Shown one piece after another: positions 42,703 through 64,000 of a stretch of 64,000 nt of DNA. The translations under genes and the position numbers were made by a program. Source of the DNA: Deltaproteobacteria bacterium RIFCSPHIGHO2_02_FULL_40_28 (lineage in GTDB: Bacteria > UBA10199 > 2-12-FULL-40-28); NCBI GenBank assembly GCA_001798135.1, contig MGRJ01000023.1, positions 62,001-126,000 on the forward strand. The letters are read 5' to 3'. Position 1 is the stretch's first letter. The number at the start of each line of letters is the position of its first letter. The notes below the pieces were generated by a model. It had not been told where the DNA came from, did no database searches, and was given only the letters and a program-made list of their open reading frames with translations.

Positions 42703-42709
42703 GAGAACC

Positions 42710-43639: not shown

Positions 43640-44208
43640 GATTTTTTACTCCTGGTTGGTTCTGGAATTGGATCTACCTGTTTCATTTTTGGATCATGAG
43701 CATTATGACAAGAGGTACAGGAGTGTTGTTTTTTATTATTTAACCAGCCTCCAACGACTTTCCCATGAATATTGTTTTTCCAATCTTTCAAAGTTGGCCC
43801 ATGGCATTGCCCACAAAGTCGATAAGATTCGTTAAAGCTGATTTTTTCTTCCGATTGAAGAATAAGTTTGTTGTAATTTTTTGAAGCATGACAGTTATTG
43901 CACCAAAAGTTTGGGTCATCCTTTTTTTCTGGATGAAAGGTTGTGATACTTTCGTGGTCTTTATCTTTTGCCATTGGCCTGATTTTACTATTAAAAGATT
44001 CTTCACTGTCGTGACATTCGTCACAGCGATACATTTCTATTTTAGGCGTCCGTTTTATGATTTCATTTGGTAACTCTTCTTGAGAAGAAACCGTAGCTGG
44101 AGTATCTTCTTGGGCATGGAGAAAGGTGTTGAAAAATAGACAGCTTATAATAATAAGCACAATCATTAACATCGTGCATATTTTTATCATTTGCATGATT
44201 AATATCAT
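43636..44208 (-). CDS. Periplasmic tetraheme cytochrome c of the NrfD complex
   Basis: This 190-residue cytochrome has four CXXCH haem motifs (CDECH, CNNCH, CGQCH, CTSCH) after a signal or anchor helix (MLMIVLIIISCLFFNTFLHA). It probably accepts electrons from the iron-sulfur subunit. Several in-frame ATGs lie at the 5' end (44208, 44196, 44190); none has a strong Shine-Dalgarno. The promoter inferred from the FNR-like site at 44232-44245 would start transcription near 44197, which favours one of the internal starts. It heads the cytochrome-FeS-NrfD unit. Confidence 0.88.
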   Translation of the reverse strand: MILIMQMIKICTMLMIVLIIISCLFFNTFLHAQEDTPATVSSQEELPNEIIKRTPKIEMYRCDECHDSEESFNSKIRPMAKDKDHESITTFHPEKKDDPNFWCNNCHASKNYNKLILQSEEKISFNESYRLCGQCHGPTLKDWKNNIHGKVVGGWLNNKKQHSCTSCHNAHDPKMKQVDPIPEPTRSKKS

Positions 44209-44231
44209 AGAATGTAATTATTTTATTGTAC

Positions 44232-44245
44232 ATGATCTATATCAT
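44232..44245. promoter_or_regulatory. FNR/DNR-like operator between divergent cytochrome units
   Basis: ATGAT-CTAT-ATCAT is a perfect TGAT-N4-ATCA site of the CRP/FNR family. Read on the minus strand it is identical over 15 bases to the site at 57634-57648. Its centre (44238.5) lies about 41.5 bp before likely start points on both sides; a TATGAT -10 at 44209-44204 serves the minus-strand unit. FNR-class activators act from -41.5, so one site may control both units. Confidence 0.65.
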
Positions 44246-44295
44246 GGATGCTTTAATGAAAATATTGTTTAACTTAAAACATGGAGAAGAAACTT

Positions 44296-44694
44296 ATGAA
44301 GTGCTTACGGATGGTAAAAGTTGTGATTGTTATTTTATTAACGGGTTTGTTTTTTATTTCTCAGGCCTATGCAGATGGCAAAAAAATATTTTTGGATAAC
44401 AAATGCAACAAGTGCCACACCTTTAAAAAATTAGGCATCGAGAAACTTCCCAAAAAAGCCCTGGCTGCAGAGGATGATGGGGAAGAAGCCGACGAAGAGG
44501 TGCTTGATAAAGCCGGGAAAAAAATCGAACCCAAGGATATGTTGGATGCTGTTGTGGCATCCAAAAAAGCCAAACTTGATATTGGCAAGTGGTTGAAAAA
44601 AGAGGCCACCATAGAAGATCGTAAGCACAAGAAGAAATTTCAAGGAACAGAAGGAGATCTTAAAATACTGGTTGATTGGCTTAATACTTTTTAG
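44296..44694 (+). CDS. Small monoheme cytochrome c
   Basis: I start this protein at ATG 44296, which has GGAGAAG six bases upstream; the ATG at 44281 overlaps that signal. The 132-residue product has a signal peptide (VIVILLTGLFFISQAYA) and one CNKCH haem site near residue 30. A long Lys/Glu/Asp-rich insert follows, and the final ILVDWLNTF resembles the last helix of class I cytochromes. No clear distal Met is seen, so the sixth ligand may be His or Lys. It is first in the plus-strand electron-transfer set. Confidence 0.82.
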   Translation: MKCLRMVKVVIVILLTGLFFISQAYADGKKIFLDNKCNKCHTFKKLGIEKLPKKALAAEDDGEEADEEVLDKAGKKIEPKDMLDAVVASKKAKLDIGKWLKKEATIEDRKHKKKFQGTEGDLKILVDWLNTF

Positions 44695-44752
44695 GATGTT
44701 GTTGTTAAGTGGTATGTGAACGCAGAAAGTGAAGTAGGGTTTGGGGGTGTGT

Positions 44753-46162
44753 GTGGTAACGGTAAGAAAAATAAGTTGTTTGGTTTTTTTTAGCATGCTG
44801 GTTTGGTTTGGTGGTGTGTTAGCAAAAGAGGTTCCTGCGAAAGCAGTTCCTGCTCAAGAAACCATAGCCACGGTAGAAAAAACAAGCTCAACCAAAACAA
44901 ACAAATTTTTTAATCTTTTTAGTGGCTCCTTCCTTAATCGCTATCGTTTGCGTTCTACTGGTGGTGTTAGTGATCACGATGCAGACACGCTTCTTACCCT
45001 CAATATTGGGGACTCATCCTATCAAAAAGTAACAGGGGCCTTACAGACGGGGTATCATTTTGAATTAAACGGGGATCAGGGCGCTCCTCTTAATAGTATA
45101 TATGATACGTTTGATAGCCGGGCGGTAGGCCGCTTCTATTATGGATATGCCAATATCCAAAAGGTAGGTTTATTTGAACAGGCGCGTGTTGGTCGTCAAT
45201 ACAAATATGATTTTGAGTCTTTGTATTTTGATGGAGTGTCGGTTGAGTCTAACCCTTATTACGGTATCCGTTTAAGTACCTATGCCGGTATTCCTGTTCA
45301 TTTGTTCGAAAACCAGTTTGGTTGGAATGAAGGGGATTGGCTTGTTGGTTCAGCTTTAAGCTGGACTCCTATCAAGCAAATCAGGGTCCGTTTTGATCAG
45401 GTTCATTTAAAGGATAATGCCGCTGCTTTTCGCATGAGCCAAGCAGATCAGGAAGATGATTTATTTGGAGGAACGTTGTGGGTTGATATCCTTAAAAACT
45501 GGGATGCTGCAGCTCGCTTTACTTCGTTTTCAGATCAAACCCGCGATTTAACTTTGGAGTCAAAATTGCGCTTTGCTAAGCAGGATTTGCGAATTGGGAT
45601 GAAGGTATTTAGGCTTTTAGAGGGGTATGATATTCGTGTACCTGAACTGGATACTTATTCTATTGCTGGAACTTATAAACCGTTTACTGAGTATGCCATT
45701 AACGCCACTAAAGGTTTAGGGAAACATTTTTTTTTAGATGGTGGTTTTAATTGGCGCAAACTGGATGATTCTCAAACTGCCAGTGCTTTTAACCATGGTT
45801 ACAAACGAGGGTTTTTGTCTGTCACTTCCTCAGATATCCCCGTAAAAAATTTAAGCCTAACAGCCACAGGGGATTACTATCATGGGGAAGATAATGATCT
45901 TAGCGATAATTATTTTGGTGGATCCTTTTCTGCCCTACAAAGTTTTTTTAAGAAGCGTTTGATTTTAAGTGGTGGCACAGCCTACTATCTTTATCGATTT
46001 AATTTTGCAACTGGCAGTGAGTCAAATGATGTGCAAACTTATTTTGCAAAAGTGGAAGGAAAGCTAACAAAAGAGTTGAAGGCAAAAACTAGTTATGAGT
46101 TTGAACATAATGACATCAATAGTTTTCATACGTTTAATCTTGGTTTAATATGGGATTTTTAA
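44753..46162 (+). CDS. Outer-membrane beta-barrel protein of the first electron conduit
   Basis: This protein of about 469 residues has a signal peptide (ISCLVFFSMLVWFGGVLAKE) and alternating hydrophobic strands with aromatic girdles through to a C-terminal FNLGLIWDF, typical of an outer-membrane barrel ending in Phe. The start is uncertain: GTG 44753 or GTG 44747, with a TTG at 44741. It lies between a monoheme and a nonaheme cytochrome, the place of MtrB/PioB-type porins in porin-cytochrome conduits. It lacks the N-terminal CxxC of MtrB. The role as conduit sheath is inferred from context. Confidence 0.8.
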   Translation: MVTVRKISCLVFFSMLVWFGGVLAKEVPAKAVPAQETIATVEKTSSTKTNKFFNLFSGSFLNRYRLRSTGGVSDHDADTLLTLNIGDSSYQKVTGALQTGYHFELNGDQGAPLNSIYDTFDSRAVGRFYYGYANIQKVGLFEQARVGRQYKYDFESLYFDGVSVESNPYYGIRLSTYAGIPVHLFENQFGWNEGDWLVGSALSWTPIKQIRVRFDQVHLKDNAAAFRMSQADQEDDLFGGTLWVDILKNWDAAARFTSFSDQTRDLTLESKLRFAKQDLRIGMKVFRLLEGYDIRVPELDTYSIAGTYKPFTEYAINATKGLGKHFFLDGGFNWRKLDDSQTASAFNHGYKRGFLSVTSSDIPVKNLSLTATGDYYHGEDNDLSDNYFGGSFSALQSFFKKRLILSGGTAYYLYRFNFATGSESNDVQTYFAKVEGKLTKELKAKTSYEFEHNDINSFHTFNLGLIWDF

Positions 46163-46163
46163 A

Positions 46164-46865
46164 ATGAATCACACACGAATCATCATCATGTTGTTGGTAA
46201 TTATATTAACTCCTTTTTTGCTTGCCAACCAGAGTTGCGAACGCTCAACTACATGGGGAGAAAAGTATTTTACTAAATGGGAATCAGACCATGTGGATAT
46301 CGACAAAGACACCAAGTGTATTGATTGCCATGATGATATTAAAAACACGAAAGTAAAACCATTAAATCATGATGCTACCTGGAAGCGCGAGCATGGAAAA
46401 TTTGAGTCGCAGAGGTATGGTTTTAAAAACGAAAATGTTTGCTCCCTTTGTCACACGGAAGCCCAATGCACCAAATGTCATCAACAAGAAGCTCCCCAGC
46501 AACATACTGAATTCTGGAAGCAAAGAGGGCATGGGGTTTTTGTAGGGCTTGATAGGTCTAGTTGTATGACTTGTCATAACGATGCCCAATTTTGCGAACG
46601 TTGCCATCGTCTTACGGAACCAAGAAGCCATACCGCAGGTTGGGGTGCCACGACAAATCGGCATTGCAATAGTTGCCACTTCCCATTGACAGCTGCTGGA
46701 GGGCAACAATGTGCGGTATGTCATGCAGGTACGCCATCTCACAATAGTACACCATCTCAACCTAGTGATGCTTTACATGTTACAGGCGCTAATTGTGCGG
46801 GTTGTCATACCTCTCTGCGCCATCCGGATAATGGTATGGCTTGTACGATTTGCCATACACAATGA
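46164..46865 (+). CDS. Nonaheme periplasmic cytochrome c
   Basis: This 233-residue protein has nine CXXCH motifs (CIDCH, CSLCH, CTKCH, CMTCH, CERCH, CNSCH, CAVCH, CAGCH, CTICH) after an N-terminal hydrophobic segment (IIIMLLVIILTPFLLANQSC). A non-standard lipobox-like NQSC is present, so export by signal peptide or lipidation are both possible. Haem density (one per 26 residues) is that of electron-wire proteins like MtrA, though the sequence is not clearly MtrA. It starts one base after the barrel gene. Confidence 0.92.
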   Translation: MNHTRIIIMLLVIILTPFLLANQSCERSTTWGEKYFTKWESDHVDIDKDTKCIDCHDDIKNTKVKPLNHDATWKREHGKFESQRYGFKNENVCSLCHTEAQCTKCHQQEAPQQHTEFWKQRGHGVFVGLDRSSCMTCHNDAQFCERCHRLTEPRSHTAGWGATTNRHCNSCHFPLTAAGGQQCAVCHAGTPSHNSTPSQPSDALHVTGANCAGCHTSLRHPDNGMACTICHTQ

Positions 46866-46905
46866 GTTTTGATGAAAACGGAATGAATAAATATATGGAG
46901 TTATT

Positions 46906-48825
46906 ATGATCATTAAAAAACACGTCAGTATTATTATCGGGTTTCTATTTTTCTCTAGTCTCTTGTTAGCTTGTGGAGGCAGTGTCGATTTAAGCGACAG
47001 TGTAAGTGAAAATGAAAGGAGTCAATCCGCAGGCCTCTATGGAACTGTTACTGATAACGCAGGAGCCGCTATAGAAAGCGCCACTGTGATTTTGATTCCA
47101 GCAGATGATATCAACACAGCGAGGCTGGATATTGCCGATTTTTCACCTGATGCCACTGATGATGAACCTTTGGAGGATCTTGTAAACGATACGACAAAGT
47201 CTTACCAAACGACAACAACCGATGTAAATGGTGACTACAGTTTTGCTTCTGTTACTGAGGACAGCTATTTTATTTATGTAAAACCTGCAGATACCGACAC
47301 AAGCCATTTGCCCGGTGGAAGTCTTTGCCGTATCTCACGGCAATTGACCAACACAGGGTTGAACTTTGACATTGAGATATCCACAAATCCCTCTGCAGCA
47401 GCCACTTACGTGGGTTCCTCAACCTGTTTAACCTGTCACTCGGACAAAACAACTATTTACAAAACTGGACATTTCAACAGTTTGCATGTTCCCGCCTCTG
47501 ATAGCGACATGCAGGATGTCTCGGCATTCGATGACTTTAATGACGCGCTCGACAAGTTTAATGGGACCACAACTGTATATTTCTATGACTATGATTCGAC
47601 CCGCGGGTTTGATAAATATAAAACAGCCGAAACTAGTTCTGGTACGGTTAGCTTTCGCATTCGCCTGCTCAAAACTGGTGATACGTATCAAATGGAATTT
47701 ACCAACGTCAAAAATGCATCCGATCCCAATAATGGAATAGTTTATGATGTTGACTTAGCCTACGGCGGTGCTGTTTATAAGCAACGATACCTTACTCGGC
47801 TTGCCGTATCGCACGCCGTGCTGCCCCTGCAATATCAACAAGAGGGCAGTGAATCAAACTCTCCGCGTACCCGTAAGGTCTGGCGGGATTACCATGGTAG
47901 CTACTGGTATAACGAAACCACCCAGCTCTTTACAACTCCGGCTAATAGCAAGTCCTTTGATAATAACTGCGCTGGGTGTCATTTCACTGGTTATAGCTTA
48001 GGAGGTGATAGCACTAACGGATATGCAGCGACTGCAGTCAGCGACACAGATGGCACCTACGACTTTGATGCTGATGGTGATCTTGATGAAATCAATACAG
48101 GTTGTGAGGTGTGTCATGGCCCCGGTTCCGAGCATGTGGCTAGTGGTGGTGCGACGGTAGCTCTTGGTTTGCTCACACCAGAACGTGAGTCGATTGTTTG
48201 TGGTCAATGTCATAGTCGCCCCAAAGGTGCTTTGGGAACCGATGTTCCAGATAACGCTGATGGGGATATGATGCGCCCCGGTAATTCACGTAGCTACTTT
48301 TTGGAAAACCACACCAACGGCACTCAGTACGACACATCTTCCAGTGATCTTTACACGGACGTGGATCAAAGCTCGAAGTCCCATCACCAACAATACACTG
48401 ATTTTATCCGCTCCTCGCTCTACAAAAACAACGAGCAATTGGTGACATGTTCGAATTGTCATAACATGCATGGGACGGATAATTTCCGTAGCTTAACAGC
48501 CACCACAAGCGATGATGCCCTCTGTACCGATTGTCATCCTGACAAAACCACAGTTACGGAGCATACAGAAGATAAGCTTGGAACCTCAACAGATATGGGT
48601 GCGGTATGCATTGATTGTCATATGAATAAGATTGCCAAAACGGGTGCTGGTCGTCAGGGTAATGGCAGTTATTGGGAAAATGATGTGACCTCACATCTTT
48701 TTTCTGTGGCACGCAAGACAACGTCTATTGTTGCGGGTCAGACGGTTAGCGATAGTCTGATGTCTATCCCGTATACAAACAGCTGTACCAGTGCTTGTCA
48801 CGACTCAGATCTTTCGGATGACTGA
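46906..48825 (+). CDS. Multiheme cytochrome lipoprotein with carboxypeptidase-regulatory-like domain
   Basis: This 639-residue lipoprotein (lipobox LLLAC, Cys23) has a CarboxypepD_reg-like Ig domain at about 40-130 (LYGTVTDNAGAAIESATVIL; TTDVNGDYSFASV), then a multiheme region with seven CXXCH sites (CLTCH, CAGCH, CEVCH, CGQCH, CSNCH, CTDCH, CIDCH) and a final CTSACH of CX3CH type. The segments STCLTCHSDKTT...HF and CEVCHGPGSEH resemble cytochrome c554-like domains. As a surface lipoprotein it may be the outermost, substrate-facing part of the first conduit. Start has GGAG upstream. Confidence 0.9.
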   Translation: MIIKKHVSIIIGFLFFSSLLLACGGSVDLSDSVSENERSQSAGLYGTVTDNAGAAIESATVILIPADDINTARLDIADFSPDATDDEPLEDLVNDTTKSYQTTTTDVNGDYSFASVTEDSYFIYVKPADTDTSHLPGGSLCRISRQLTNTGLNFDIEISTNPSAAATYVGSSTCLTCHSDKTTIYKTGHFNSLHVPASDSDMQDVSAFDDFNDALDKFNGTTTVYFYDYDSTRGFDKYKTAETSSGTVSFRIRLLKTGDTYQMEFTNVKNASDPNNGIVYDVDLAYGGAVYKQRYLTRLAVSHAVLPLQYQQEGSESNSPRTRKVWRDYHGSYWYNETTQLFTTPANSKSFDNNCAGCHFTGYSLGGDSTNGYAATAVSDTDGTYDFDADGDLDEINTGCEVCHGPGSEHVASGGATVALGLLTPERESIVCGQCHSRPKGALGTDVPDNADGDMMRPGNSRSYFLENHTNGTQYDTSSSDLYTDVDQSSKSHHQQYTDFIRSSLYKNNEQLVTCSNCHNMHGTDNFRSLTATTSDDALCTDCHPDKTTVTEHTEDKLGTSTDMGAVCIDCHMNKIAKTGAGRQGNGSYWENDVTSHLFSVARKTTSIVAGQTVSDSLMSIPYTNSCTSACHDSDLSDD

Positions 48826-52015: not shown

Positions 52016-52296
52016 AATTGTCCTTTCTGTTGGTTGTCTATTTGTTTTAGCAATGTGGCACCTTCATTCATTGCCTCGTTTTCCATTTCTTTAAAATCCT
52101 CTTCTGAAACCTTATTTAAAGCACGATCCAATTTTAAATCCTTGAGGCCAGCTATCACATTGGCTTTGCGAAGAGCCAAATCTTCCTGGAAGGTCGATAA
52201 TGATATTTCGTCTGTGTCATTTTTGGCAAGAGGTGAAAACAGAAACCAGAGCCCTGCTCCAAAAATAATCATGATGGCAATAATTTCAATCGTCAT
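52012..52296 (-). CDS. CcmI-like small membrane protein
   Basis: This 94-residue protein has one N-terminal transmembrane helix (IEIIAIMIIFGAGLWFLF) and a helical domain AGLKDLKLDRALNKVSEEDF, the pattern of the N-terminal part of CcmI/CycH-type proteins that present apocytochrome to the haem ligation complex. The TPR part of classical CcmI is missing. It overlaps the CcmF-CcmH gene by 11 bp and the downstream gene by 4 bp. Confidence 0.75.
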   Translation of the reverse strand: MTIEIIAIMIIFGAGLWFLFSPLAKNDTDEISLSTFQEDLALRKANVIAGLKDLKLDRALNKVSEEDFKEMENEAMNEGATLLKQIDNQQKGQL

Positions 52297-54817
52297 TTTT
52301 GTCTGCCTCCTCTTTGAAAAGCTTATAATATGGATCCTGTACTTCTGTTGCCACTTTTTTTGTCAAAGGGCTTTCTTCCCTGTTTTTTCTCCACTTGTAA
52401 ATCAGGCAAAAACCACCCAAAAAGGAAGCCACCAAAGCCAGGGTTGGCAATATAAAACCAATTTCAAAAAAACCACTTCGTGGAGGCTCCATCAGAATAT
52501 GCAAGCCATATTTGCTGGTAAAAGCTGCCATGATGTCGTTATCCGTTTTTCCTTCATTCAGCATGGACAAAATTTTTCCACGCTCATTTTTTGCGTAATC
52601 GCAGGTGCAGGTTCTGAGTGCCATGCGCACACAACCCTTACAAGCACATTTTAATTTTTCAGAAATGCTTTTTTGTTTTTCAATCAATGGATCGGTTTTA
52701 TTGACAGCAAAAGGGTCTTCTCCTGTTTCGAGATGCTTAAAGGAAGCCGTGTTTGCTGGAGGATTGGATACATCTTCCGCCCTGGCTGTTGAAAATCCTC
52801 CGGTCAGATGAAAAAGAATGCTTGTGAGGAGCAACGTTTTTAATCCACCTTTAAAAATCTTTTTTTGTCCCGGAGTTCCCTTGGGAATAATGACGATAAG
52901 GCTGGACACCAAAATGACAATTCCACCAATCCATAAAAAACTAATCAGCGGGTTGATGGTGGCCCTAAAATCAGCCCTGCCGGTTTTTGTGTTTAAATTG
53001 GCAAGAACAAGGTAAACATCCCTGAATGGCGCATGAAAAATAGCAGCTTCTGTTGTGGGTTGCTCGCTTGATTTGTAAAAAAACCGGGCCGGCTTTAACT
53101 CCACAATCTTTTTCTCGTTTTTAAAAACATCCACCCTGGCTACCAGGGCATCCTTGTTTTCGTCCGAATTGACCACGGGTTCTTGATATACAAAATGGTA
53201 CTCACCCAAGGTGAATTTATTTCCAGGATTTAATGAAAAATCAGCCTCATTTTTGAACAGGGTTCCTGCAATGCCAACGAAAATCATGAGAACCCCAAGG
53301 TGTACAAGGTATCCTCCGTAACGTCTGTTATTGTTGGTTATCAGATCCACCATGGCCACCATCAAGGGAAGTTTTTTCTGTTTTTTGATCACAGTGATCC
53401 CACGATGAAATTCAAGATAAATAACCCCTACAACAAATCCAATAAGTGTTGCTGAAAGAATGGCATACCAATATCCACCAGAAATCGGGAAAAACACACA
53501 ACCGGATAAAATCCCAAAAAGAAGGGGACCTAAAAGGTTAGATTTGAGATTGGTCCAGCTGCCTTTTTTCCATGAAACCATGGGACCAAAGCCCATGAGG
53601 AAAATCAAAATCAGGCCAATGGGAGCCATCATCTTGTTGAAAAAAGAAGGCCCAACAGTAATGCGCTGCCCTGTTATCCACTCCGAAAGAGAGGGAAACA
53701 TGGTTGCCCACATCACACAAAAAGCCCCCACCACCAAAATAATATTGTTAAGGACAAAGGCACTTTCCTTGGAAAAATAAGACTGGAGTATGTTTGCTGA
53801 TTGAAGCTGCGTCCGCCGCGTAACAATCAACCATGTTGATACCGCTATGGCAAACAAAATAAAGGCCAAAAAATAAGGCCCCAGGCTAGAACCTGAAAAG
53901 GCATGCACCGATTCTACAACACCACTACGAGTGAGGAAAGTTCCAAAAAGAGTCAGGATAAAGGTGAGGCAAATGAGGGAAATATTCCATACAGCAAACA
54001 TGCCCCTCCTTTTTTGGATGAGCACAGAGTGAAAATAAGCCGTGGCTGTTAACCAAGGCATGAAACTGGCATTTTCAACAGGATCCCAAGCCCAAAATCC
54101 TCCCCATCCCAACTCCACGTAAGCCCAGGCCGCTCCTAAAAGATTTCCCATGGTTAGAAAAAACCAGGCTACAAAGGTCCATCTCCTGGAGTCTTCAATC
54201 CAAACAGAATCCAGCCGTCTGGTTACCAAAGCAGCAATGGCAAAGGCAAAAGGCACTGAAAAACCCGTAAACCCCAAGTACAAAGAAGGGGGATGAATAA
54301 CCATGGCAATGTTTTGCAGCAACGGATTCAAACCCTTCCCATCCAACGGAATGGCCCCTTCAACAGGAGTAAAAGGATTATTGGCAAACACAATCAGGGC
54401 CAAAAAGAAGAGCACAATCGTCATCATGACTGCATTGATGTAAGGCATCCAGTCGGGATTTTTTTTCATGTTCTGAAAAAGAACAATCACCGAATAAAGA
54501 GAAACCAACCAAACCCAAAATAATATAGAACCATCCAAACCAGCCCAAAGCCCGGCAAATTTAAAAAAGAGAGGGAGTGTGATGTTGGAATAATGTGCAA
54601 CATACACAATACTAAAATCATTTGTAACAAAGGCTAATATCAGAAAACACACAGACAATGTAAGAAGAGCAAAGGTAAAAATAGTAGCCCTTTGCCCTAT
54701 TTTTACAAGAGCAGATTTTTGCCACCAATAACCCCCAAGATAAAAAAGGATGCTTAAAAGTGTTGAAGGAAAAGCCAATGCTAAGGTGTAGCTTCCCAAA
54801 ATAGATAATGAAATCAA
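52286..54817 (-). CDS. ccmF: Cytochrome c haem lyase: CcmF fused to CcmH
   Basis: This 843-residue protein carries CcmF (about 1-640) with many transmembrane helices and the haem-handling WWD-like motif VELGWGGFWAWDPVENASF near residue 238. After a loop with ARAEDVSNPP, a CcmH-type region follows (about 690-843): EKLKCACKGCVRMALRTCTC, DIMAAFTSKYGLHILMEPP and a final transmembrane helix. In CcmH the usual motif is LRCxxC; here it is a cysteine-rich variant. The two proteins normally are separate, and together ligate haem to apocytochromes. It is divergent from the cytochrome c gene at 54983. Other ccm genes are not in the window. Confidence 0.9.
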   Translation of the reverse strand: MISLSILGSYTLALAFPSTLLSILFYLGGYWWQKSALVKIGQRATIFTFALLTLSVCFLILAFVTNDFSIVYVAHYSNITLPLFFKFAGLWAGLDGSILFWVWLVSLYSVIVLFQNMKKNPDWMPYINAVMMTIVLFFLALIVFANNPFTPVEGAIPLDGKGLNPLLQNIAMVIHPPSLYLGFTGFSVPFAFAIAALVTRRLDSVWIEDSRRWTFVAWFFLTMGNLLGAAWAYVELGWGGFWAWDPVENASFMPWLTATAYFHSVLIQKRRGMFAVWNISLICLTFILTLFGTFLTRSGVVESVHAFSGSSLGPYFLAFILFAIAVSTWLIVTRRTQLQSANILQSYFSKESAFVLNNIILVVGAFCVMWATMFPSLSEWITGQRITVGPSFFNKMMAPIGLILIFLMGFGPMVSWKKGSWTNLKSNLLGPLLFGILSGCVFFPISGGYWYAILSATLIGFVVGVIYLEFHRGITVIKKQKKLPLMVAMVDLITNNNRRYGGYLVHLGVLMIFVGIAGTLFKNEADFSLNPGNKFTLGEYHFVYQEPVVNSDENKDALVARVDVFKNEKKIVELKPARFFYKSSEQPTTEAAIFHAPFRDVYLVLANLNTKTGRADFRATINPLISFLWIGGIVILVSSLIVIIPKGTPGQKKIFKGGLKTLLLTSILFHLTGGFSTARAEDVSNPPANTASFKHLETGEDPFAVNKTDPLIEKQKSISEKLKCACKGCVRMALRTCTCDYAKNERGKILSMLNEGKTDNDIMAAFTSKYGLHILMEPPRSGFFEIGFILPTLALVASFLGGFCLIYKWRKNREESPLTKKVATEVQDPYYKLFKEEADKNDD

Positions 54818-54982: not shown

Positions 54983-55321
54983 ATGAAATATGTTTTGATG
55001 TTTACTTTTTTGTTTTCCATTGTGGCTGTGAACAATGTGTATGCAGCAGCAGATACTGCTGCGGGTAAGGCCAAGTTTGATATGCTTTGTGCTGGATGCC
55101 ATGGCGCAGGAGGCGCAGGAGATGGCCCTGCTGGCCCCAGCCTGAAGCCGCCGCCCGCCAATCTTACAAAAACCAAACTGGATGATGCTGGTTTGACAAA
55201 AATCATTACTGAAGGTGGACCTGCCGTAGGTAGATCTCCTACCATGGCAGCTTTTGGTTCTTCATTGAAGGCCGATGAAATAGCCGATGTTGTTGCCTAC
55301 ATTAGAACCTTGAAAAAATAA
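54983..55321 (+). CDS. Class I monoheme cytochrome c
   Basis: This 112-residue periplasmic cytochrome has a signal peptide (MFTFLFSIVAVNNVYA), a haem motif CAGCH near residue 36 (MLCAGCHGAGGAGDGPAGP), a likely axial methionine in RSPTMAAFGSSL and the C-terminal helix EIADVVAYIRTLKK. It is a soluble electron carrier, and starts the second electron-transfer set. AAAGGAG lies seven bases before the ATG. The 165-bp gap upstream, shared with ccmF, has no recognisable FNR site. Confidence 0.94.
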   Translation: MKYVLMFTFLFSIVAVNNVYAAADTAAGKAKFDMLCAGCHGAGGAGDGPAGPSLKPPPANLTKTKLDDAGLTKIITEGGPAVGRSPTMAAFGSSLKADEIADVVAYIRTLKK

Positions 55322-55335
55322 AAAGGGCGGCAATT

Positions 55336-55370
55336 GGGTCTGTTGAAAAACGTAGTTTTTCAACAGACCC
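55336..55370. terminator. Strong hairpin between cytochrome c and the fused porin gene
   Basis: Perfect 15-bp arms, GGGTCTGTTGAAAAA and its complement, surround a 5-base CGTAG loop, starting 14 bp after the stop of the cytochrome gene and ending 11 bp before the next start. The U-rich half of the arm could act as a rho-independent terminator or attenuator, making more of the monoheme cytochrome than of the downstream proteins. It may also be a mobile palindromic element. Confidence 0.6.
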
Positions 55371-55380
55371 ACAAGGTGTA

Positions 55381-57039
55381 ATGTTTTTTTTAAAAACGAA
55401 AATTTCAAAAAAAGTTTATGTTTTTTCTTTTTTGGTTTTTATTTGTCTGGTTATCAACCTCGTTTTTTTTGGAGATGCATTAAGTCAAACCCCTCCCCCA
55501 CCATCAGCCAAAATTCATGCTCCCGATTGGATCGTTAAGCATGGCAAGGAATTTGTAAAAAACAGGGATTTTTGTAAGGCCTGTCACGCCCCTGATCTCA
55601 CTGGAGGATTTACCGGCATTAAGTGTGATTTGTGCCATCTCCTGCCAGCCCATCCCCCTGACTGGAAGGAAATTCACGGCGATAAATTTCTGGAAAACCA
55701 GAGTCAGTGTACCCTGTGCCATGGGCGGGATCCTTTTTCTGGAAAAAAACAGCCATTCACCATGAACTGCACCCGCTGTCATGCTGTAAATGCCGATATT
55801 GGTCGGTGGCAGGCAGAATCCCAAACCTCTCAAATGTATCTTAGTTTTCTGCAAACAGCTCAAGTACGTGAGGATCGTTTTTCAAAAACGGAAACTGCTA
55901 CTAACAATTATGCGGGCTTTCATCTGAGTGAGCGAAGCAAGCAAATAACTGCTTCTAGTCAGGTTCGTTTTACACGGGAGTGGCTGGATGAAAAAGAAAA
56001 TAATCTGGATATCTATGAGGCCTATCTGGAGAAAGATAACCTTTTAAAAAATCATCTTGATGTAAAAGTGGGTCGACGGGGTTTTGGATCCAATGTGGAT
56101 TATTTTCTCATGGATGGAATGGATCTTACTATCAAGCCTGCCAAGTTTTTTAATGTAATGGCTTATGCCGGTATTCCCCGTTACATCGAACAAGAAGATA
56201 TCGATGGTAACCTTGGCTTTGTGTCTGGTTTAAGTTTGAGAATGAAGGAATATAAATACACCAAGGCCAAAATTGATTTTACTTATCAAAAAAAGGATTT
56301 TTCAGCAGGTGGTTTAAACCTGAACGACAAAATGTATGCGGCAGCCTCGTTATCCAAGGGCATTTCCATTTTTAAGCTTTATGGACTTGGCGAGTACGAC
56401 CTGACAGAAACTCTTCCAACCGCTCTCACGGCCGGAACCGAAATTTATCCTTTTGTCAAAAAGATCAGCTTTCTTTTGGAAGGCAGTTATTTCAATGAAA
56501 GCCGCAACGACAATTTTGACAGTATCTTCACCATTTTTTCGGAAGGGGCTCTTTGGCAGGGGCGCAGTGGATTTGCGGTGAATGTCATAAAAAATCTCTC
56601 TCTTTCGGATTATTTTTCTTTTCAGCGCTATGAGGTTTTGCCCAGCTTATCCAAAAATGGCTACAACAATAGCATGGGTGCCAGTTACCTCTTTAAAAAA
56701 ATAAAACTTGAAACAGCTCTGAACTACAATTTTTATAAAAGCTATGGCGGAACCTTGCACGGGTTTTCACTTTCACTTTACGAAGACTGGACACGTGATT
56801 TTTATACTAGAGCCTTTGTCGATTTCATTACTTATACCAAGGTGACCAACAATGATGACAAGGCGTTTGATGCCCTGCTTGAGGTTGGATATCAATTGCG
56901 GAGAGGGTTGAGGTTGGCGGCAGTTGCAGAATATGTGAACAACAATGTTCGGGAAACAGATTTAAAAGGAACCATTAAACTCAACTATCTATTTGACACC
57001 AAGTTTCTGGAATTTGAAAAACAAAAAGAAAAAAAATGA
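55381..57039 (+). CDS. Tetraheme cytochrome-outer membrane porin fusion
   Basis: This 552-residue protein has a long signal region (VYVFSFLVFICLVINLVFFG), then a haem domain with four CXXCH motifs (CKACH near 65, CDLCH near 80, CTLCH near 106, CTRCH near 125), and from about residue 150 to the end alternating beta-strands with aromatic girdles like an outer-membrane barrel (AYLEKDN..LDVKVGRRGFGSN; MAYAGIPRYIEQEDIDG; final LNYLFDTKFLEFEK). Haem domain and barrel are in one frame without interruption. It resembles the design of Cyc2, which has one haem, but here with four. It could carry electrons across the outer membrane on its own. Confidence 0.88.
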   Translation: MFFLKTKISKKVYVFSFLVFICLVINLVFFGDALSQTPPPPSAKIHAPDWIVKHGKEFVKNRDFCKACHAPDLTGGFTGIKCDLCHLLPAHPPDWKEIHGDKFLENQSQCTLCHGRDPFSGKKQPFTMNCTRCHAVNADIGRWQAESQTSQMYLSFLQTAQVREDRFSKTETATNNYAGFHLSERSKQITASSQVRFTREWLDEKENNLDIYEAYLEKDNLLKNHLDVKVGRRGFGSNVDYFLMDGMDLTIKPAKFFNVMAYAGIPRYIEQEDIDGNLGFVSGLSLRMKEYKYTKAKIDFTYQKKDFSAGGLNLNDKMYAAASLSKGISIFKLYGLGEYDLTETLPTALTAGTEIYPFVKKISFLLEGSYFNESRNDNFDSIFTIFSEGALWQGRSGFAVNVIKNLSLSDYFSFQRYEVLPSLSKNGYNNSMGASYLFKKIKLETALNYNFYKSYGGTLHGFSLSLYEDWTRDFYTRAFVDFITYTKVTNNDDKAFDALLEVGYQLRRGLRLAAVAEYVNNNVRETDLKGTIKLNYLFDTKFLEFEKQKEKK

Positions 57040-57599
57040 GAAAAATCTTTCTAAAATATTTTATTTTTCTGGGATTGGGCCTTGTTACTATACTTGGTGC
57101 AGAAGCCCGATGGGAACCAAAACAGGTTAATATACCGCTTGATCTCTACAACCATACCAAACATTTTGCCCGTTTTGCCCAGTATGCCATTGCGTGCACC
57201 ATGTGCCACAAAACGCCGGATTCCTTTAACCGCGAAAAAGTCGACCATATGGGATGCCATTTTTGTCATAACAATGATCAATCCCCAGCTCCCGCAGCCG
57301 CCCGATTTAAATGTATCACCTGTCATAAAGATCTTTTCCAGGTTAAACCAGATAACCACCAGTTAAACTGGATAGACAGACATCAAACTGTTGCCAAACA
57401 GGACAAGGATTATTGTTTTAAATGTCACAAAACTTTCTTTTGTACCGACTGTCATCAAAAAAGAGATTTTGAAAATCAAAGAATGCATACCAGTAATTTT
57501 CGCTACTACCATTCCATTGTGGCCAGAAGTAATCCACGCACCTGCAGTAATTGCCATCAAATGAATTTTTGCAAGGATTGTCATTCTGACAGTGACTAG
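57036..57599 (+). CDS. Heptaheme periplasmic cytochrome c
   Basis: This 187-residue protein has a signal peptide (YFIFLGLGLVTILGAEA) and seven CXXCH motifs (CTMCH, CHFCH, CITCH, CFKCH, CTDCH, CSNCH, CKDCH), with several extra histidines for bis-His ligation (IPLDLYNHTKHFARFA). The spacing resembles cytochrome c7/c3-type modules. It overlaps the fused porin gene by 4 bp (ATGA), so the two are co-translated and may work together, the heptaheme protein feeding the conduit from the periplasm. Confidence 0.92.
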   Translation: MRKIFLKYFIFLGLGLVTILGAEARWEPKQVNIPLDLYNHTKHFARFAQYAIACTMCHKTPDSFNREKVDHMGCHFCHNNDQSPAPAAARFKCITCHKDLFQVKPDNHQLNWIDRHQTVAKQDKDYCFKCHKTFFCTDCHQKRDFENQRMHTSNFRYYHSIVARSNPRTCSNCHQMNFCKDCHSDSD

Positions 57600-57676: not shown

Positions 57677-57693
57677 ATTCATTGGAAGGAAGA

Positions 57694-60087
57694 ATGCATA
57701 TAAATCATATCGTTTTATATTTTTTTATTTCATTTGTTTCATTTATTATTGGCTGTTCTGGCGGAGGCACATCTGATTCTGCCTCGAATGAGTTTGCTTC
57801 TGTTGATTTAAGTGTTGGCGAGCATGCTGTTTTTCCCCATCCCGATCGTTGGGCTGATTCCACTTATTCAGGTTTTCATGGCTACTGGCTCAAGGCTAAT
57901 GGTTTTAATGTGATTGATACCACCTGCGTGCGTTGTCACGACAAAGAATCAACCATATCCAGCGCTAATGCCGGTGGAGGCCCTCCCGGATGCAAATCCT
58001 GTCACACTGTTTTTCCACATGTTACAGGCTGGCGAAATGGTGTGGATGAGGGCGGACATGGAAAGTATGTGTTGTCTCTCAGGGAGGCGGATGCATCTGT
58101 GACTGGGACAGAGGAGTGTCAACAATGTCATGGTGATGATCTCAATGGCGGTATAACGGGTGTTTCCTGTAATCAGTGTCACACCGTGTATCCCCACGGA
58201 GATGCCACCGCCTGGGCTTTAAAAACAAATCATGGGCAAGCAGCATTGGAAAACGGGTTTGATGTTTGCCAACGATGTCATGGAGATGATTTTGAAGGGG
58301 GCGATACCGGAATTCGCTGCCGCAGTTGTCATGAAGGAGTATTTCCCCATGGAGTTGATGTAATGCCTGAGGGGGGCATTGATGTTGAGGTTGCGGAGGA
58401 TGGTAGTAATGACTATGTGTTATCCGATGATGATATGATAACCAGTGCTGCAACCGGTGCAGACTACGAAAATATTTACGACAGCGAATGGAGAGAAAAA
58501 ATAAATCATGGTCGAACGACTATCCAGCTTGGTTACGATGTGTGCCGCGGATGCCATGGAAGCGACTTAACCGGTGGGGATGTGGGGGTGAGCTGTTACC
58601 AATGCCATTCCTTTGCTCCCCATGTTGATGGCTGGGCCGAACCAGACGTGCATGGTGTGACAGCAAAAGGAAATGGAAAAGAACTGTGCACGGGATGTCA
58701 TGGTGAGGATCTTTCTGGAGAAGATACAGGCACGGCTTGTAACAAGTGCCATATCATTTATCCCCATACGAAAGGAAAAAATGCCACAGCAGCCATTGCT
58801 GATATGCCTACTGGGACAGAGTGGAGCGACATTGAAAACCACGGTTACTACGCCCTCAACAATGGAACAACCCTGTGTGCCGGCCAATGTCATGGTTCTG
58901 ACCTGGAAGGAGGCCTTTCTGGGGTTGCTTGTACAACTGCTTGTCATGCCGTACCCGCGCCACACGATGCAGCCACCCTCCCCAGTTGGGCTGATTCTAC
59001 CTATCGAAAAAATGCGGGCGAAGCCATTGATACAGACCATCCCTTCCATGGAGACTATGCCGAAGGGGCCGCTAAAAGCACTTGCATGGGTTGTCATGGC
59101 AATGACTTAACCGGCGGAGATGCCGGGGTTAGCTGTTTTCAATGCCATGTCTACGCGCCTCATCAAGACTCTGATGGTTTGCCTGATCACCTGAAGGTGT
59201 TAAACGATGCAGTTGATAGCAATGGAGACGGCACCTTTGACCGAATTTGGGATACCGACGGTGATGCTGATGATGTGTGGGTTGCTGATGCCACTGGTTC
59301 AAACGGAAAAGACATTGTCCATGCCGCCATTGCTGTGTCTCTCATGCGCCAGGGCAATATCTCTGAATGCACCCGTTGTCATGGCGAAAACTTTGATCGT
59401 GAAGTGGGAGGCATTAAATGCACTAACTGCCATGAAAATGGAGTGACTCATACAAGTGCTTCCATGACGATTGAAGGTACAACCTATACTGGCGGCTGGG
59501 GGCCCAATATTGGCGGTGGCTCCAACCATGGTACTTATTTTTCAACTTACTTCACAGCCAATGATTCGGACGCCTTTTGTTGGGACTGCCATGGATCACC
59601 CATCGTATTTACAGATTCAAGTACCACAGGAACTTATTTTAATGCTTGCAACAACTGCCATGGGGTTTCAGGCCGATCGTCCGATCAAACCCAAGCAAGT
59701 TTGGCTGAACAAACGTTCTGCTATTCATGCCATCTGTATCCACATCTTGCTCTTGAGACAGAATCCTTAGACAGTGCAGGAGACCCTGTTATTAATAGGC
59801 CCGCCTGGGGACCCAACAATTATGCCAAGAATGGAAATGAAAACGGATTTTATTGGAGCCATGTTTATACGATTACACGCTGGGCCAACACTGTTGATGA
59901 ATCGGGAAATTACTATGCTGACGAACCAACAGACCCCCGTTCTCCCGGCTCCACTGCATCTGCTGTAATTGCCAATACCTGCGGTGGCGGTACAGAAAAT
60001 AAATGCCATTACGATGGGTATAGGGCACCACGAAACAATCTAACCAATTATGGACTTTGTCGGGGTTATTGCCATGTAGACTGGTAA
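57694..60087 (+). CDS. Giant multiheme lipoprotein cytochrome with repeated two-haem modules
   Basis: I start at ATG 57694 with GGAAGGA upstream (the longer frame begins with TTG), giving 797 residues. The lipobox IIGC (Cys21) predicts a lipoprotein. There are 17 CXXCH sites, three CX3CH (CAGQCH, CTTACH, CRGYCH) and one CX7CH (CGGGTENKCH), so up to 21 haems. Most come in a repeated module of about 60-75 residues, C-x2-CHGxDLxGGxxGVSCxQCHxxxPH. No match to OmcA/MtrC families is evident. As a surface lipoprotein it may form an extended electron wire. Confidence 0.92.
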   Translation: MHINHIVLYFFISFVSFIIGCSGGGTSDSASNEFASVDLSVGEHAVFPHPDRWADSTYSGFHGYWLKANGFNVIDTTCVRCHDKESTISSANAGGGPPGCKSCHTVFPHVTGWRNGVDEGGHGKYVLSLREADASVTGTEECQQCHGDDLNGGITGVSCNQCHTVYPHGDATAWALKTNHGQAALENGFDVCQRCHGDDFEGGDTGIRCRSCHEGVFPHGVDVMPEGGIDVEVAEDGSNDYVLSDDDMITSAATGADYENIYDSEWREKINHGRTTIQLGYDVCRGCHGSDLTGGDVGVSCYQCHSFAPHVDGWAEPDVHGVTAKGNGKELCTGCHGEDLSGEDTGTACNKCHIIYPHTKGKNATAAIADMPTGTEWSDIENHGYYALNNGTTLCAGQCHGSDLEGGLSGVACTTACHAVPAPHDAATLPSWADSTYRKNAGEAIDTDHPFHGDYAEGAAKSTCMGCHGNDLTGGDAGVSCFQCHVYAPHQDSDGLPDHLKVLNDAVDSNGDGTFDRIWDTDGDADDVWVADATGSNGKDIVHAAIAVSLMRQGNISECTRCHGENFDREVGGIKCTNCHENGVTHTSASMTIEGTTYTGGWGPNIGGGSNHGTYFSTYFTANDSDAFCWDCHGSPIVFTDSSTTGTYFNACNNCHGVSGRSSDQTQASLAEQTFCYSCHLYPHLALETESLDSAGDPVINRPAWGPNNYAKNGNENGFYWSHVYTITRWANTVDESGNYYADEPTDPRSPGSTASAVIANTCGGGTENKCHYDGYRAPRNNLTNYGLCRGYCHVDW

Positions 60088-60121: not shown

Positions 60122-63100
60122 ATGCTGGAATGTGTGAACAAAAAATTAATGGTGCACACAGTAGTTGTTTTACTGAGCCTTGGGCTTTGCCCTGTGCTTT
60201 CGTGGGCCCGAAGCATGGATTATCTCAACAAAGATCAGGTTAATTCCACACTCGATGTCTCCATTATCTCACTCGAAGATATCGATGTAGGCCCTTCGTT
60301 TCCAAGCATGGGATCTCATGCAATAGCCCTAGATCGTAACGGGTATCCACACATCGTTTATGGGGGCGATAATCTTTATCACACCTACTACGATGGTGCC
60401 ACTTGGAACACAGAAACCGTGGATAGCGAAAATGGCACCGGTGAAGAAGCCACCATCGCCATTGATTCCAGCGGGGCTACGGATGTAATTCATGTTATCT
60501 ATACCGATTCAGTTAATGCGGATCTTAAATATGCTACCAATGCTACAGGAAGCTGGGTGATTACTGCAAGCATTGACACATTAGAAGGCACCTCTCTTTC
60601 AATGGCCCTTGATTCCTCTGGTTATGTTCATGCCACCTACCAGGTTGCCTCTGCTTATCTAACCCATCTTACCAACAGAAGTGGAAGCTGGGTCGATGTA
60701 AACATCGATAGTGGAAGTAATGGAACAGGATCACCTAACAATATTGTCATTGACTCTTCGGATAACCTGCACGTGATTTATTACGAAGCGCGAGGCAGCG
60801 GTAATTATGGTATCAGCTACGCCACCAAGGCTGCGTCTGGAAGTAGCTGGACTGTTACCGAGTTAAGCTCGGTCTGGCCTGCCTATACCTGGCCTTCGGT
60901 TGCACTTGATACAAGTCAAAATTTGCATATGGTCTATAAAAATGGCAGCACGGGGGGGCTTGATTATCAGACTAAACCTAGCGGTTCTTCCACTTGGGGG
61001 GCTGTTACGACAGTTCTTTCCTCTGGGGTGGATGAATATGTCAATCTAGTCGCGGATGCCTCAAACAATCTGTATGTGAGTTTCTACAATTCAACTGACG
61101 ACGACTTAAAATACGTCCATTACGATAATTCAGGAGGAATGGGTTGGGATGCAAGCGCCACAACACTTGATTCTAGTGGAGATGTGGGTTCTTACAACGC
61201 AATTGTAGCTTCTGGGGGAACGGCTCATATCAGCTATTACGATGCAACCAATGGGGCTTTAAAATACACGACGGGGAGTGGTTCTTCTTGGAGTACAAGC
61301 ACCCTAGCCAATTCGGAAGATCTTGGTCGGTATTCCTCGATGGTTCTTGATTCTGCCGGCAATATCCATGTGGCCTACTATGAGGCCGATCAAGCTAATC
61401 TTAAGTATGCTACCAATACTAGCGGGAGCTGGGTGGCCGAAACAGTGGATAGTACGGGGGATGTAGGCATGTATGCCTCCTTGGGCATTGATACTCGCGG
61501 TTATCTGCATATTGCTTATTATGATGCCACCAATACCAGTCTTAAATACGCCACCAATAGTAGTGGTGCGTGGGTTTCTAGCACCCTAGACAATAGCACG
61601 AACATCACTGGTGAAATAAGCACCTTGATTTTGGATGCTGCCAACGCGGTTCATATTTTTCATTACTGGAGCTACACCGATTCGGGCACAGGTCTTGGCA
61701 CCACCGATTTCATGCATATCACCAATGCCAGCGGAGCCTGGGTTTCAGAAACCGTGGCCAGTAGGGCCTTTACTGTGGATTCCCTGGCCTTTGTCGAACA
61801 GGGAGATGTTGATGTTTTCATCGATTCCTCCGGATATTTTCAGGTTACTTTTTCGGATATCAGTTCTACTGAAGGGTATTACACCTATTACGCCACTAAC
61901 ATGAGCGGAACCTGGGTTTCCGATGATCCGGATACCTGTGCCGAAAGCGATGAGATCTTCAATGAAATTTTTCAAGACTCCAATGGAGACATTCATATTT
62001 TCTTTGTTAGTGCACAGCTCAACTACACCACCAATATCCCAGGATGGTGGTCTTGTTCCAAGCTGGCAAATCCTTCACCAGTTGATGCCTACTATCCGTC
62101 GGCTCTCATTGATGATCAGGATTATTTGTATGTTGCGTATCAAGAAACTGATGATGATGAACTGCAGTTTTTAACTTCAATTAGCATGGATGCCAACTAC
62201 GACTGGAACAAGGCTGTTTTGGTTGATAGTGATGTTACACATGTTTCTTTGCAACAAGATGCTATTGGATATTTTCATGCCACTTTTTACGATGTGGCCA
62301 ATCAAGATCACAAATATGTCAAGTTTACCATTGATGCCGATGCAGATGGATCTGAAAATATCGATGATTGCGATGATGGTGTTGCAACAACCTACCCAGG
62401 AGCTACAGAAATATGTGGAGACTCGGTAGATAACGATTGTGATGGTACAACTGATGAACAAGATTCTGGTAGTACCCCTATTACCTGGTACGCCGATGGC
62501 GACCGAGATGGTTATGGTACAACATCCCTCACAACCGAGGCCTGTTCGGAACCCACCGGTTATTCTACTGAGAGTTCAGATTGCAATGATAACGATAGCG
62601 CCATCAGCCCCGATGTAGCTGAGGTATGTGTTGATGGTATCGATAACGATTGCGATGACAATATCGACGAGGGATGCGTTGGCGAAAGTAACTACGATGA
62701 CGATGGGGATGGCTATTCTGAAAATGCCGGTGACTGCGATGATGCCGATAGTAGCATCAACCCAGGAGCTACTGAAATTTGCGATGGTGTTGACAACGAC
62801 TGCGATCGTGACCTGGATGATGGCGATGTTGATGTGGTTGGTGCCTCCATCTGGTATCCCAATTTTGATGGGGATGCATATGGGGCTAGTGGCACCTCCA
62901 TCGCGGCCTGCAGTCAGCCCAACATGTATTTGTCTGTTGGAGGGGATTGTAATGACAACAATTCTGCCATCTATCCAGGTGCGGACGAAGTTTGTGGGGA
63001 CAGTATTGATAATAATTGTGATGATAATGTGGATGAAGAAACAGCCTCTTTTTCCATCATTTCTTGGTATCCGGATGGTGATGAAGATGGTTACGGGAGT

Positions 63101-63340
63101 GCCGATGTGGTTACAGAGACAGAAGTGTTAACAAGCTGTAGCCAGCCTGCTGCCAATTATGTTGCTGACAATTCAGACTGTAATGATTCCAATCCGGATA
63201 TTAGTGCGGATGCTGCTGAAATTTGCAGTGACCAAATCGACAATAACTGTGACGGTGCAATTGATGAAGCCAGTTGCGCTAGAAATAGTGAGTGGAATCT
63301 GGATGCTGATTCTGGTGCGGGATGTTCTCTTAGAAGGTAA
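60122..63340 (+). CDS. Secreted repeat protein with beta-propeller-like and MopE-type metal-binding repeats
   Basis: This 1072-residue protein has a signal peptide (VVVLLSLGLCPVLSWA). Residues about 50-740 contain roughly a dozen repeats of about 50-60 residues with the pattern A-x-D-SxGxxHxxYYDAxNxxLKYATNxSGSW, probably forming beta-propellers. From about 740 to 1050, five MopE-type motifs follow: DCDDGVATTYPGATEICGDS, DCNDNDSAISPDVAEVC, DCDDADSSINPGATEICDG, DCNDNNSAIYPGADEVCGD and DCNDSNPDISADAAEIC, each with N(D/N)CD afterwards. In Methylococcus, MopE binds copper. The frame ends abruptly in a short ARNSEW tail. It follows the lipoprotein after 34 bp. Confidence 0.88.
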   Translation: MLECVNKKLMVHTVVVLLSLGLCPVLSWARSMDYLNKDQVNSTLDVSIISLEDIDVGPSFPSMGSHAIALDRNGYPHIVYGGDNLYHTYYDGATWNTETVDSENGTGEEATIAIDSSGATDVIHVIYTDSVNADLKYATNATGSWVITASIDTLEGTSLSMALDSSGYVHATYQVASAYLTHLTNRSGSWVDVNIDSGSNGTGSPNNIVIDSSDNLHVIYYEARGSGNYGISYATKAASGSSWTVTELSSVWPAYTWPSVALDTSQNLHMVYKNGSTGGLDYQTKPSGSSTWGAVTTVLSSGVDEYVNLVADASNNLYVSFYNSTDDDLKYVHYDNSGGMGWDASATTLDSSGDVGSYNAIVASGGTAHISYYDATNGALKYTTGSGSSWSTSTLANSEDLGRYSSMVLDSAGNIHVAYYEADQANLKYATNTSGSWVAETVDSTGDVGMYASLGIDTRGYLHIAYYDATNTSLKYATNSSGAWVSSTLDNSTNITGEISTLILDAANAVHIFHYWSYTDSGTGLGTTDFMHITNASGAWVSETVASRAFTVDSLAFVEQGDVDVFIDSSGYFQVTFSDISSTEGYYTYYATNMSGTWVSDDPDTCAESDEIFNEIFQDSNGDIHIFFVSAQLNYTTNIPGWWSCSKLANPSPVDAYYPSALIDDQDYLYVAYQETDDDELQFLTSISMDANYDWNKAVLVDSDVTHVSLQQDAIGYFHATFYDVANQDHKYVKFTIDADADGSENIDDCDDGVATTYPGATEICGDSVDNDCDGTTDEQDSGSTPITWYADGDRDGYGTTSLTTEACSEPTGYSTESSDCNDNDSAISPDVAEVCVDGIDNDCDDNIDEGCVGESNYDDDGDGYSENAGDCDDADSSINPGATEICDGVDNDCDRDLDDGDVDVVGASIWYPNFDGDAYGASGTSIAACSQPNMYLSVGGDCNDNNSAIYPGADEVCGDSIDNNCDDNVDEETASFSIISWYPDGDEDGYGSADVVTETEVLTSCSQPAANYVADNSDCNDSNPDISADAAEICSDQIDNNCDGAIDEASCARNSEWNLDADSGAGCSLRR

Positions 63341-63345
63341 ACTTT

Positions 63346-64000
63346 ATGCAACTTTCAAAATCCTTGAAACTTCTGACTGGCCTTGGTTTTTTTGTGTTGT
63401 TGTTTTCACCTGTGGCCCACGGTGCTGATATTGCCGTGGATAATACCTTGGATGTTCTTGATGGCACTGACAGTAGTTGCTCACTTCGCGAAGCGATCAT
63501 CAATGCCAACAATGATACCGCCACTTACACGGATTGCACAGCGGGTTCAGGCACAGATACTATCATTCTCCCTGCGGGAACATATTCCTTAAGCATGTCA
63601 GGGATCGACGAAGAATACGCTGCGACTGGCGACCTGGACATCCGCTCCAGTATGACGATTCAGGGGGCTGGCTCTGGTTCAACAATTATCGACGGCGGTG
63701 GTTCCTCAGGAACCCTGCAAGATAGAATTTTTGACATCGTCTCTGGAGGGCTTACTATTAATTTCGAAGATTTAACCATCCAAAATGCCTATTTTACATC
63801 CTCTAATTACTGTGGCTCTTCTTCTTCAGTTGGAGGAGCTGGCATCTGCAATCATGATAAAAACAACACTGTTACCCTGACTGATTCTGTTGTTCAAAAC
63901 AACACGATTAGCACTGGTGCATGGATTTATGGGGCGGGTATCCTTTTTAGTTCTTCATCCACTTCTGCCTCTCTTACTCTCACCAATACTGTAGTTACGG
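63346..64000 (+). CDS. Secreted CSLREA/parallel beta-helix protein, 3' end outside the window
   Basis: An open frame from ATG 63346 (Shine-Dalgarno GAAGG upstream) runs off the end of the window with 218 codons. It has a signal peptide (GLGFFVLLFSPVAHGAD), a CSLREA domain (SSCSLREAIINANND near residue 45; TIILPAGTYSLSMSG) and then Ser/Thr/Gly-rich beta-strand repeats (FEDLTIQNAYF; TLTDSVVQNNTIS) of a right-handed parallel beta-helix. Such proteins are usually exported surface or adhesin-like proteins. It follows the MopE-repeat protein by five bases and is probably co-transcribed. Confidence 0.88.
   Translation, partial: MQLSKSLKLLTGLGFFVLLFSPVAHGADIAVDNTLDVLDGTDSSCSLREAIINANNDTATYTDCTAGSGTDTIILPAGTYSLSMSGIDEEYAATGDLDIRSSMTIQGAGSGSTIIDGGGSSGTLQDRIFDIVSGGLTINFEDLTIQNAYFTSSNYCGSSSSVGGAGICNHDKNNTVTLTDSVVQNNTISTGAWIYGAGILFSSSSTSASLTLTNTVVT

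Follow-up and report, generated by a model that had tools for sequence, protein, structure and literature searches.

A tetrahaem cytochrome and a predicted 22-strand outer-membrane barrel encoded as one chain in an uncultured deltaproteobacterium

In the well-characterised multihaem electron conduits, barrel and cytochromes are distinct proteins, which have to be made and matched. A reading frame of Deltaproteobacteria bacterium RIFCSPHIGHO2_02_FULL_40_28 appears to encode both parts together. The window considered here is a stretch of 64,000 nucleotides (contig MGRJ01000023.1, positions 62,001 to 126,000), and all positions below are counted from its first letter unless a genome or locus is named. 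The question raised by this locus is whether several haems and a barrel are truly carried by one polypeptide and, if so, whether such a protein represents a distinct class of transmembrane conduit, as a preliminary description had proposed.

The gene at 55381-57039 is a single ATG-to-TGA frame with no internal stops. Its four CXXCH motifs start at residues 65, 82, 110, and 130, all ahead of the first strand (residue 151); at least one CXXCH occurred in 42 of 20,000 shuffles that preserved the composition of the protein. The preliminary reading of one frame with four CXXCH motifs followed by about 400 barrel-like residues is borne out by a product of 552 residues with 22 predicted strands (Table 1). 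Residues 37-149 contain exactly eight histidines: the proximal ligands 69, 86, 114, and 134, and four others (46, 54, 91, and 99) that form two H-x3-W-x3-H pairs (46/54 and 91/99). Because the tetrahaem segment holds these four extra histidines, each of the four haems can have a distal histidine, and the number would be enough for bis-His ligation throughout. The tetrahaem domain is homologous to the dihaem repeats of the lipoprotein encoded at 57682-60087 (38% identity, E 7e-11), and the same dihaem repeat also builds the multihaem lipoproteins of related genomes.

Table 1. Positions of the fused gene, its domains, and the associated genes.
Feature	Position	Strand	Remarks
Monohaem class I cytochrome c	54983..55321	+	112 aa; signal peptide; PF00034 6e-15; one CXXCH
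Fused tetrahaem cytochrome / 22-strand outer-membrane barrel	55381..57039	+	552 aa
Signal peptide region, residues ~1-36	55381..55488	+	no lipobox; cleavage site judged by eye
Tetrahaem domain, residues 46-149	55516..55827	+	two dihaem repeats, H-x3-W-x3-HG ... CXXCH ... CXXCH
Barrel domain, residues 150-552	55828..57036	+	22 predicted strands; lacks a separate signal peptide
Heptahaem cytochrome	57036..57599	+	187 aa; 7 CXXCH; 4-base overlap with fused gene
Multihaem lipoprotein	57682..60087	+	lipobox FIIGC; dihaem repeats; 17 CXXCH + 3 CX3CH
MopE-like metal-binding-repeat protein	60122..63340	+	PF11617 1.3e-48; next gene, same direction
Second MopE-like protein	63346..64000	+	930 aa; start only in window, extends beyond its end
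Dihaem lipoprotein of the window's genome	G000:C23:128170-128448		2.2 kb beyond window end, after two same-direction MopE-like genes

The C-terminal part of the chain is probably a closed barrel, although the TM-scores are moderate. An AlphaFold2 model of the full chain, made from 40 aligned sequences of the window and the loci, folds residues 151-541 into 22 antiparallel strands (mean pLDDT 79, pTM 0.68). Most barrel blocks exceed pLDDT 85, and the tetrahaem part, modelled without haems, is of low confidence (blocks mostly 45-80). The barrel modelled alone from 25 sequences again has 22 strands (mean pLDDT 87.1, pTM 0.75). In Foldseek searches of the PDB, all 50 of the matches listed are outer-membrane barrels, including usher barrels (FimD/PapC), Occ/OprD, MOMP, AlgE, and maltoporin; the best TMq among them reaches 0.43 with the full chain as query; with the barrel alone it is 0.58, to a FimD usher. 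Sequence comparison places the barrel in no named family: the Pfam and NCBIfam search with the barrel part matched none, and PDB sequence searches with the barrel gave no informative match. The MtrB/PioB family in particular was rejected, since its model PF11854 matches neither the fused protein, nor its relatives, nor anything else in the whole genome; this is the outcome of the MtrB/PioB profile check that the preliminary description had suggested.

The fused gene lies among other cytochrome genes, as had been described. The downstream heptahaem cytochrome, correctly recognised at the outset, has a signal region without a lipobox; it aligns with 15 relatives at 32-43% identity and is a conserved partner of the barrel. 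The lipoprotein that follows it is likely to be a cell-surface cytochrome. It had been credited with about 21 haems; it is indeed a multihaem lipoprotein, with 17 canonical motifs and 20 at most. The monohaem cytochrome encoded upstream is likely a periplasmic shuttle. Between it and the fused gene lies a long, near-perfect hairpin (55335-55371; fold z-score -5.8) without a T-run, whose 14-base arm has no other occurrence in the genome. Divergent from the conduit operon, a haem lyase with NrfE/CcmF- and NrfF/CcmH-like parts is encoded as one 843-residue frame (52286-54817, minus strand). Both MopE-like proteins (60122-64000; locus L124, 8847-11639) end in GCSL[RV]R, which recalls a C-terminal sorting tag.

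Elsewhere in the window, a tetrahaem cytochrome, a monohaem cytochrome, an unfused barrel, a nonahaem cytochrome, and a heptahaem lipoprotein form a second conduit-like cluster (43636-48825). Its barrel (44741-46162) is distantly related to the fused one (hhalign E 9e-5), and beside it lies a DsrO/DsrP-like inner-membrane module (41485-43645), a possible quinone-to-cytochrome link.

A first contig scan with the fused protein as query gave no match. By a profile search, the barrel is present in 20 of the 46 genomes of the class, and the dihaem lipoprotein occurs in the identical 20. The named relatives are groundwater "Deltaproteobacteria" MAGs of a lineage that we take to be candidate phylum UBA10199; a literature search for cytochromes of UBA10199 found none. 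One relative, G001, of the same order and a different family, is the genome to which the contig of MAG Modern_marine.mb.68 belongs, judged by identical hits and identical contig sequence; it carries the same fusion as one 725-residue frame with twelve CXXCH motifs and six histidine pairs, matching twelve haems. No fusion was seen in the other 18 barrel-bearing genomes of the class (longest frame 477 residues), two of which (G009 and G041) have the barrel in pieces at contig ends and could still hold one. Where the locus is intact and unfused, the barrel stands alone and has a signal peptide of its own; its gene most often follows directly on one for a multihaem lipoprotein (11-28 CXXCH) and directly precedes those for the heptahaem cytochrome and a dihaem lipoprotein of about 100 residues. 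A wider search of 385 genomes found homologues of the barrel in 44. Of the places it listed, only those in the window's genome and G001 have a frame of fusion length, and the distant barrels listed from other phyla are all separate proteins; phylum and class searches around three distant relatives (a few genomes each) gave no further fusion. A search of about 390 genomes thus gives two known fused examples. Replacement of the dihaem lipoprotein by the fused haems was considered and dropped, as the lipoprotein gene is absent beside both fused genes yet found in both genomes. In G001 that gene (L125, G001:C1, 575-844) contains a single in-frame TGA at a site where its relatives encode an amino acid, the mark of either a recent pseudogene or a sequencing error.

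By its predicted products, the gene set (barrel, heptahaem cytochrome, surface multihaem lipoprotein, dihaem lipoprotein, and periplasmic monohaem cytochrome) is a porin-cytochrome conduit set. The Pcc systems of Geobacter (OmbB-OmaB-OmcB; Ext) likewise co-encode a barrel, a periplasmic multihaem cytochrome, and a multihaem lipoprotein (PMC4245776, PMC6148476), and Pcc barrels have a reported 18-22 strands (PMC4245776). With 22 predicted strands, an adjoining heptahaem cytochrome of periplasmic type, and a multihaem lipoprotein with a lipobox, the locus resembles them in gene set and strand number. In contrast to Pcc, the fused barrel has N-terminal haems of its own: barrel and cytochromes are separate proteins in the other relatives, but not in the window or at the second fused locus (L037). 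The MtrCAB, MtoAB, and PioAB systems also combine a barrel sheath with a periplasmic multihaem wire (and a surface multihaem cytochrome), but as separate chains with a 26-strand MtrB (PMC7198977) and a decahaem partner. The OetABI system of syntrophic sulfate reducers comprises a periplasmic cytochrome, an outer-membrane barrel, and a surface cytochrome lipoprotein (PMC10553843); it is alike in its parts, and its three proteins are separate.

Closest among published proteins is GM18_3465 of Geobacter sp. M18, predicted to be porin-like with 10 haems and 21 strands and encoded near a pcc cluster (PMC4245776). It too is one chain combining a porin-like part with several haem motifs; these lie in loops between strands, whereas those of the fused protein are all in one N-terminal domain of dihaem repeats. 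The premise of the preliminary description, that known conduits are either separate proteins or the one-haem Cyc2, therefore nearly holds, GM18_3465 (2014) being the exception. In the literature searched, GM18_3465 is mentioned only in PMC4245776 and the other fusions found are single-haem and Cyc2-type; as this literature includes few subscription journals, precedent elsewhere is possible.

From the fusion, its recurrence, the ligand count, and the gene partners, we infer where the haems lie and what the protein does: it is probably a porin-cytochrome conduit barrel with a covalent N-terminal multihaem arm. A single N-terminal signal peptide would export the chain, haems would be attached in the periplasm, and the predicted C-terminal 22-strand barrel would insert into the outer membrane. 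By analogy with MtrAB, the heptahaem cytochrome is most likely the wire in or at the barrel lumen. It is assigned to the lumen, and the fused haems to a periplasmic arm, because the heptahaem cytochrome is the constant partner in fused and unfused genomes, while fused haems number four to twelve in two genomes and were seen in none of the eighteen others. Barrels with an even number of strands usually have a periplasmic N-terminus, and for this reason the tetrahaem domain (the twelve-haem domain in G001) most likely begins on the periplasmic side. Keffer et al. argue likewise for Cyc2 (PMC8406198). The fused haems, tethered to the barrel, would collect electrons or extend the path between carriers in the periplasm (e.g., the upstream-encoded monohaem cytochrome) and the wire in the lumen. 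The 17-20-haem lipoprotein and the dihaem lipoprotein would exchange electrons with the cell exterior, be it in mineral reduction or in electron uptake.

The fused haems could instead fill the lumen as the transmembrane wire, with the heptahaem cytochrome docked on the periplasmic side and the lipoprotein outside; this is a less likely alternative. A 22-strand barrel is large, and its nearest structural matches include the usher barrels FimD/PapC. Lumen insertion was proposed by Shi (2014) for the multihaem porin-like GM18_3465 (PMC4245776), and the single-haem domain of Cyc2 has been modelled as plugging the mouth of the barrel (PMC8406198). However, in eighteen relatives this barrel carries no fused haems, so that another cytochrome must fill the lumen there; the twelve haems of G001 are probably too many for a lumen shared with the heptahaem cytochrome. 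As the haem number differs (four versus twelve) while the barrel is conserved (49% identity), the arm is not a plug of fixed length, which argues that at least part of the fused haem domain lies outside the lumen. It is also unlikely that the two proteins form a one-piece conduit family in which a barrel with an expandable haem wire (four to twelve haems, in dihaem repeats) conducts across the outer membrane alone.

The fused protein has its parts in the same order as Cyc2 and Cyt572 of iron oxidisers (a signal peptide, then an N-terminal haem domain, then an outer-membrane barrel at the C-terminus; PMC8406198), and it might accordingly be read as a Cyc2-like iron oxidase with extra haems, whose N-terminal haems would oxidise soluble Fe(II) that has entered the barrel. 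This reading is highly improbable. Cyc2 has one haem, 16 strands, and no comparable multihaem partner genes; the fused proteins have four or twelve haems and, in the window, 22 strands, the heptahaem and multihaem lipoprotein partners are retained, and the haem domain is homologous to the repeats of the surface lipoprotein. The Cyc2 motif AXPXFAR[Q/K][T/Y], found upstream of its single CXXCH, is absent.

Although in relatives a multihaem lipoprotein gene abuts or overlaps the barrel gene that follows it, and one lost stop or indel would join them, an assembly or sequencing artefact is the least credible explanation and was rejected, because the same one-frame fusion recurs, at 46% identity and with a different haem number, in an independent MAG from a different family, and in neither genome does the barrel half have its own signal peptide. 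Each fused chain has a single N-terminal signal peptide (judged by eye), and the alignment of the two crosses the haem/barrel junction unbroken, in one frame in G001; the frameshift between the halves that had been named as grounds for abandoning the idea is therefore not there. In a tree of 25 barrels the two fused ones form one clade with support of 100/100, so a single fusion event is enough. As far as sequence can tell, the fusion is real and recurring, and a single origin suffices. At loci L041, L046, and L051 the lipoprotein and barrel genes share a few bases, an arrangement in which a single stop loss would yield such a fusion; the fusion may have arisen by stop loss between these two genes.

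As first described, one chain carries several haems together with a predicted barrel, and its operon encodes further multihaem cytochromes. To speak of a distinct class goes too far, as the same barrel occurs unfused in relatives with the same partner genes, which makes the fusion a derived variant of a porin-cytochrome system. It is a rarely reported one-piece multihaem/barrel variant of outer-membrane electron conduits. A natural chain with several haems covalently held on a large barrel, and variable in haem number, is a ready-made template for engineered conduits, and it allows the direct question of whether haems tethered in this way supply the wire in the lumen or take its place. To an uncultured groundwater and marine lineage it adds a conserved conduit composed of a barrel, a heptahaem cytochrome, a dihaem lipoprotein, and a large multihaem lipoprotein.
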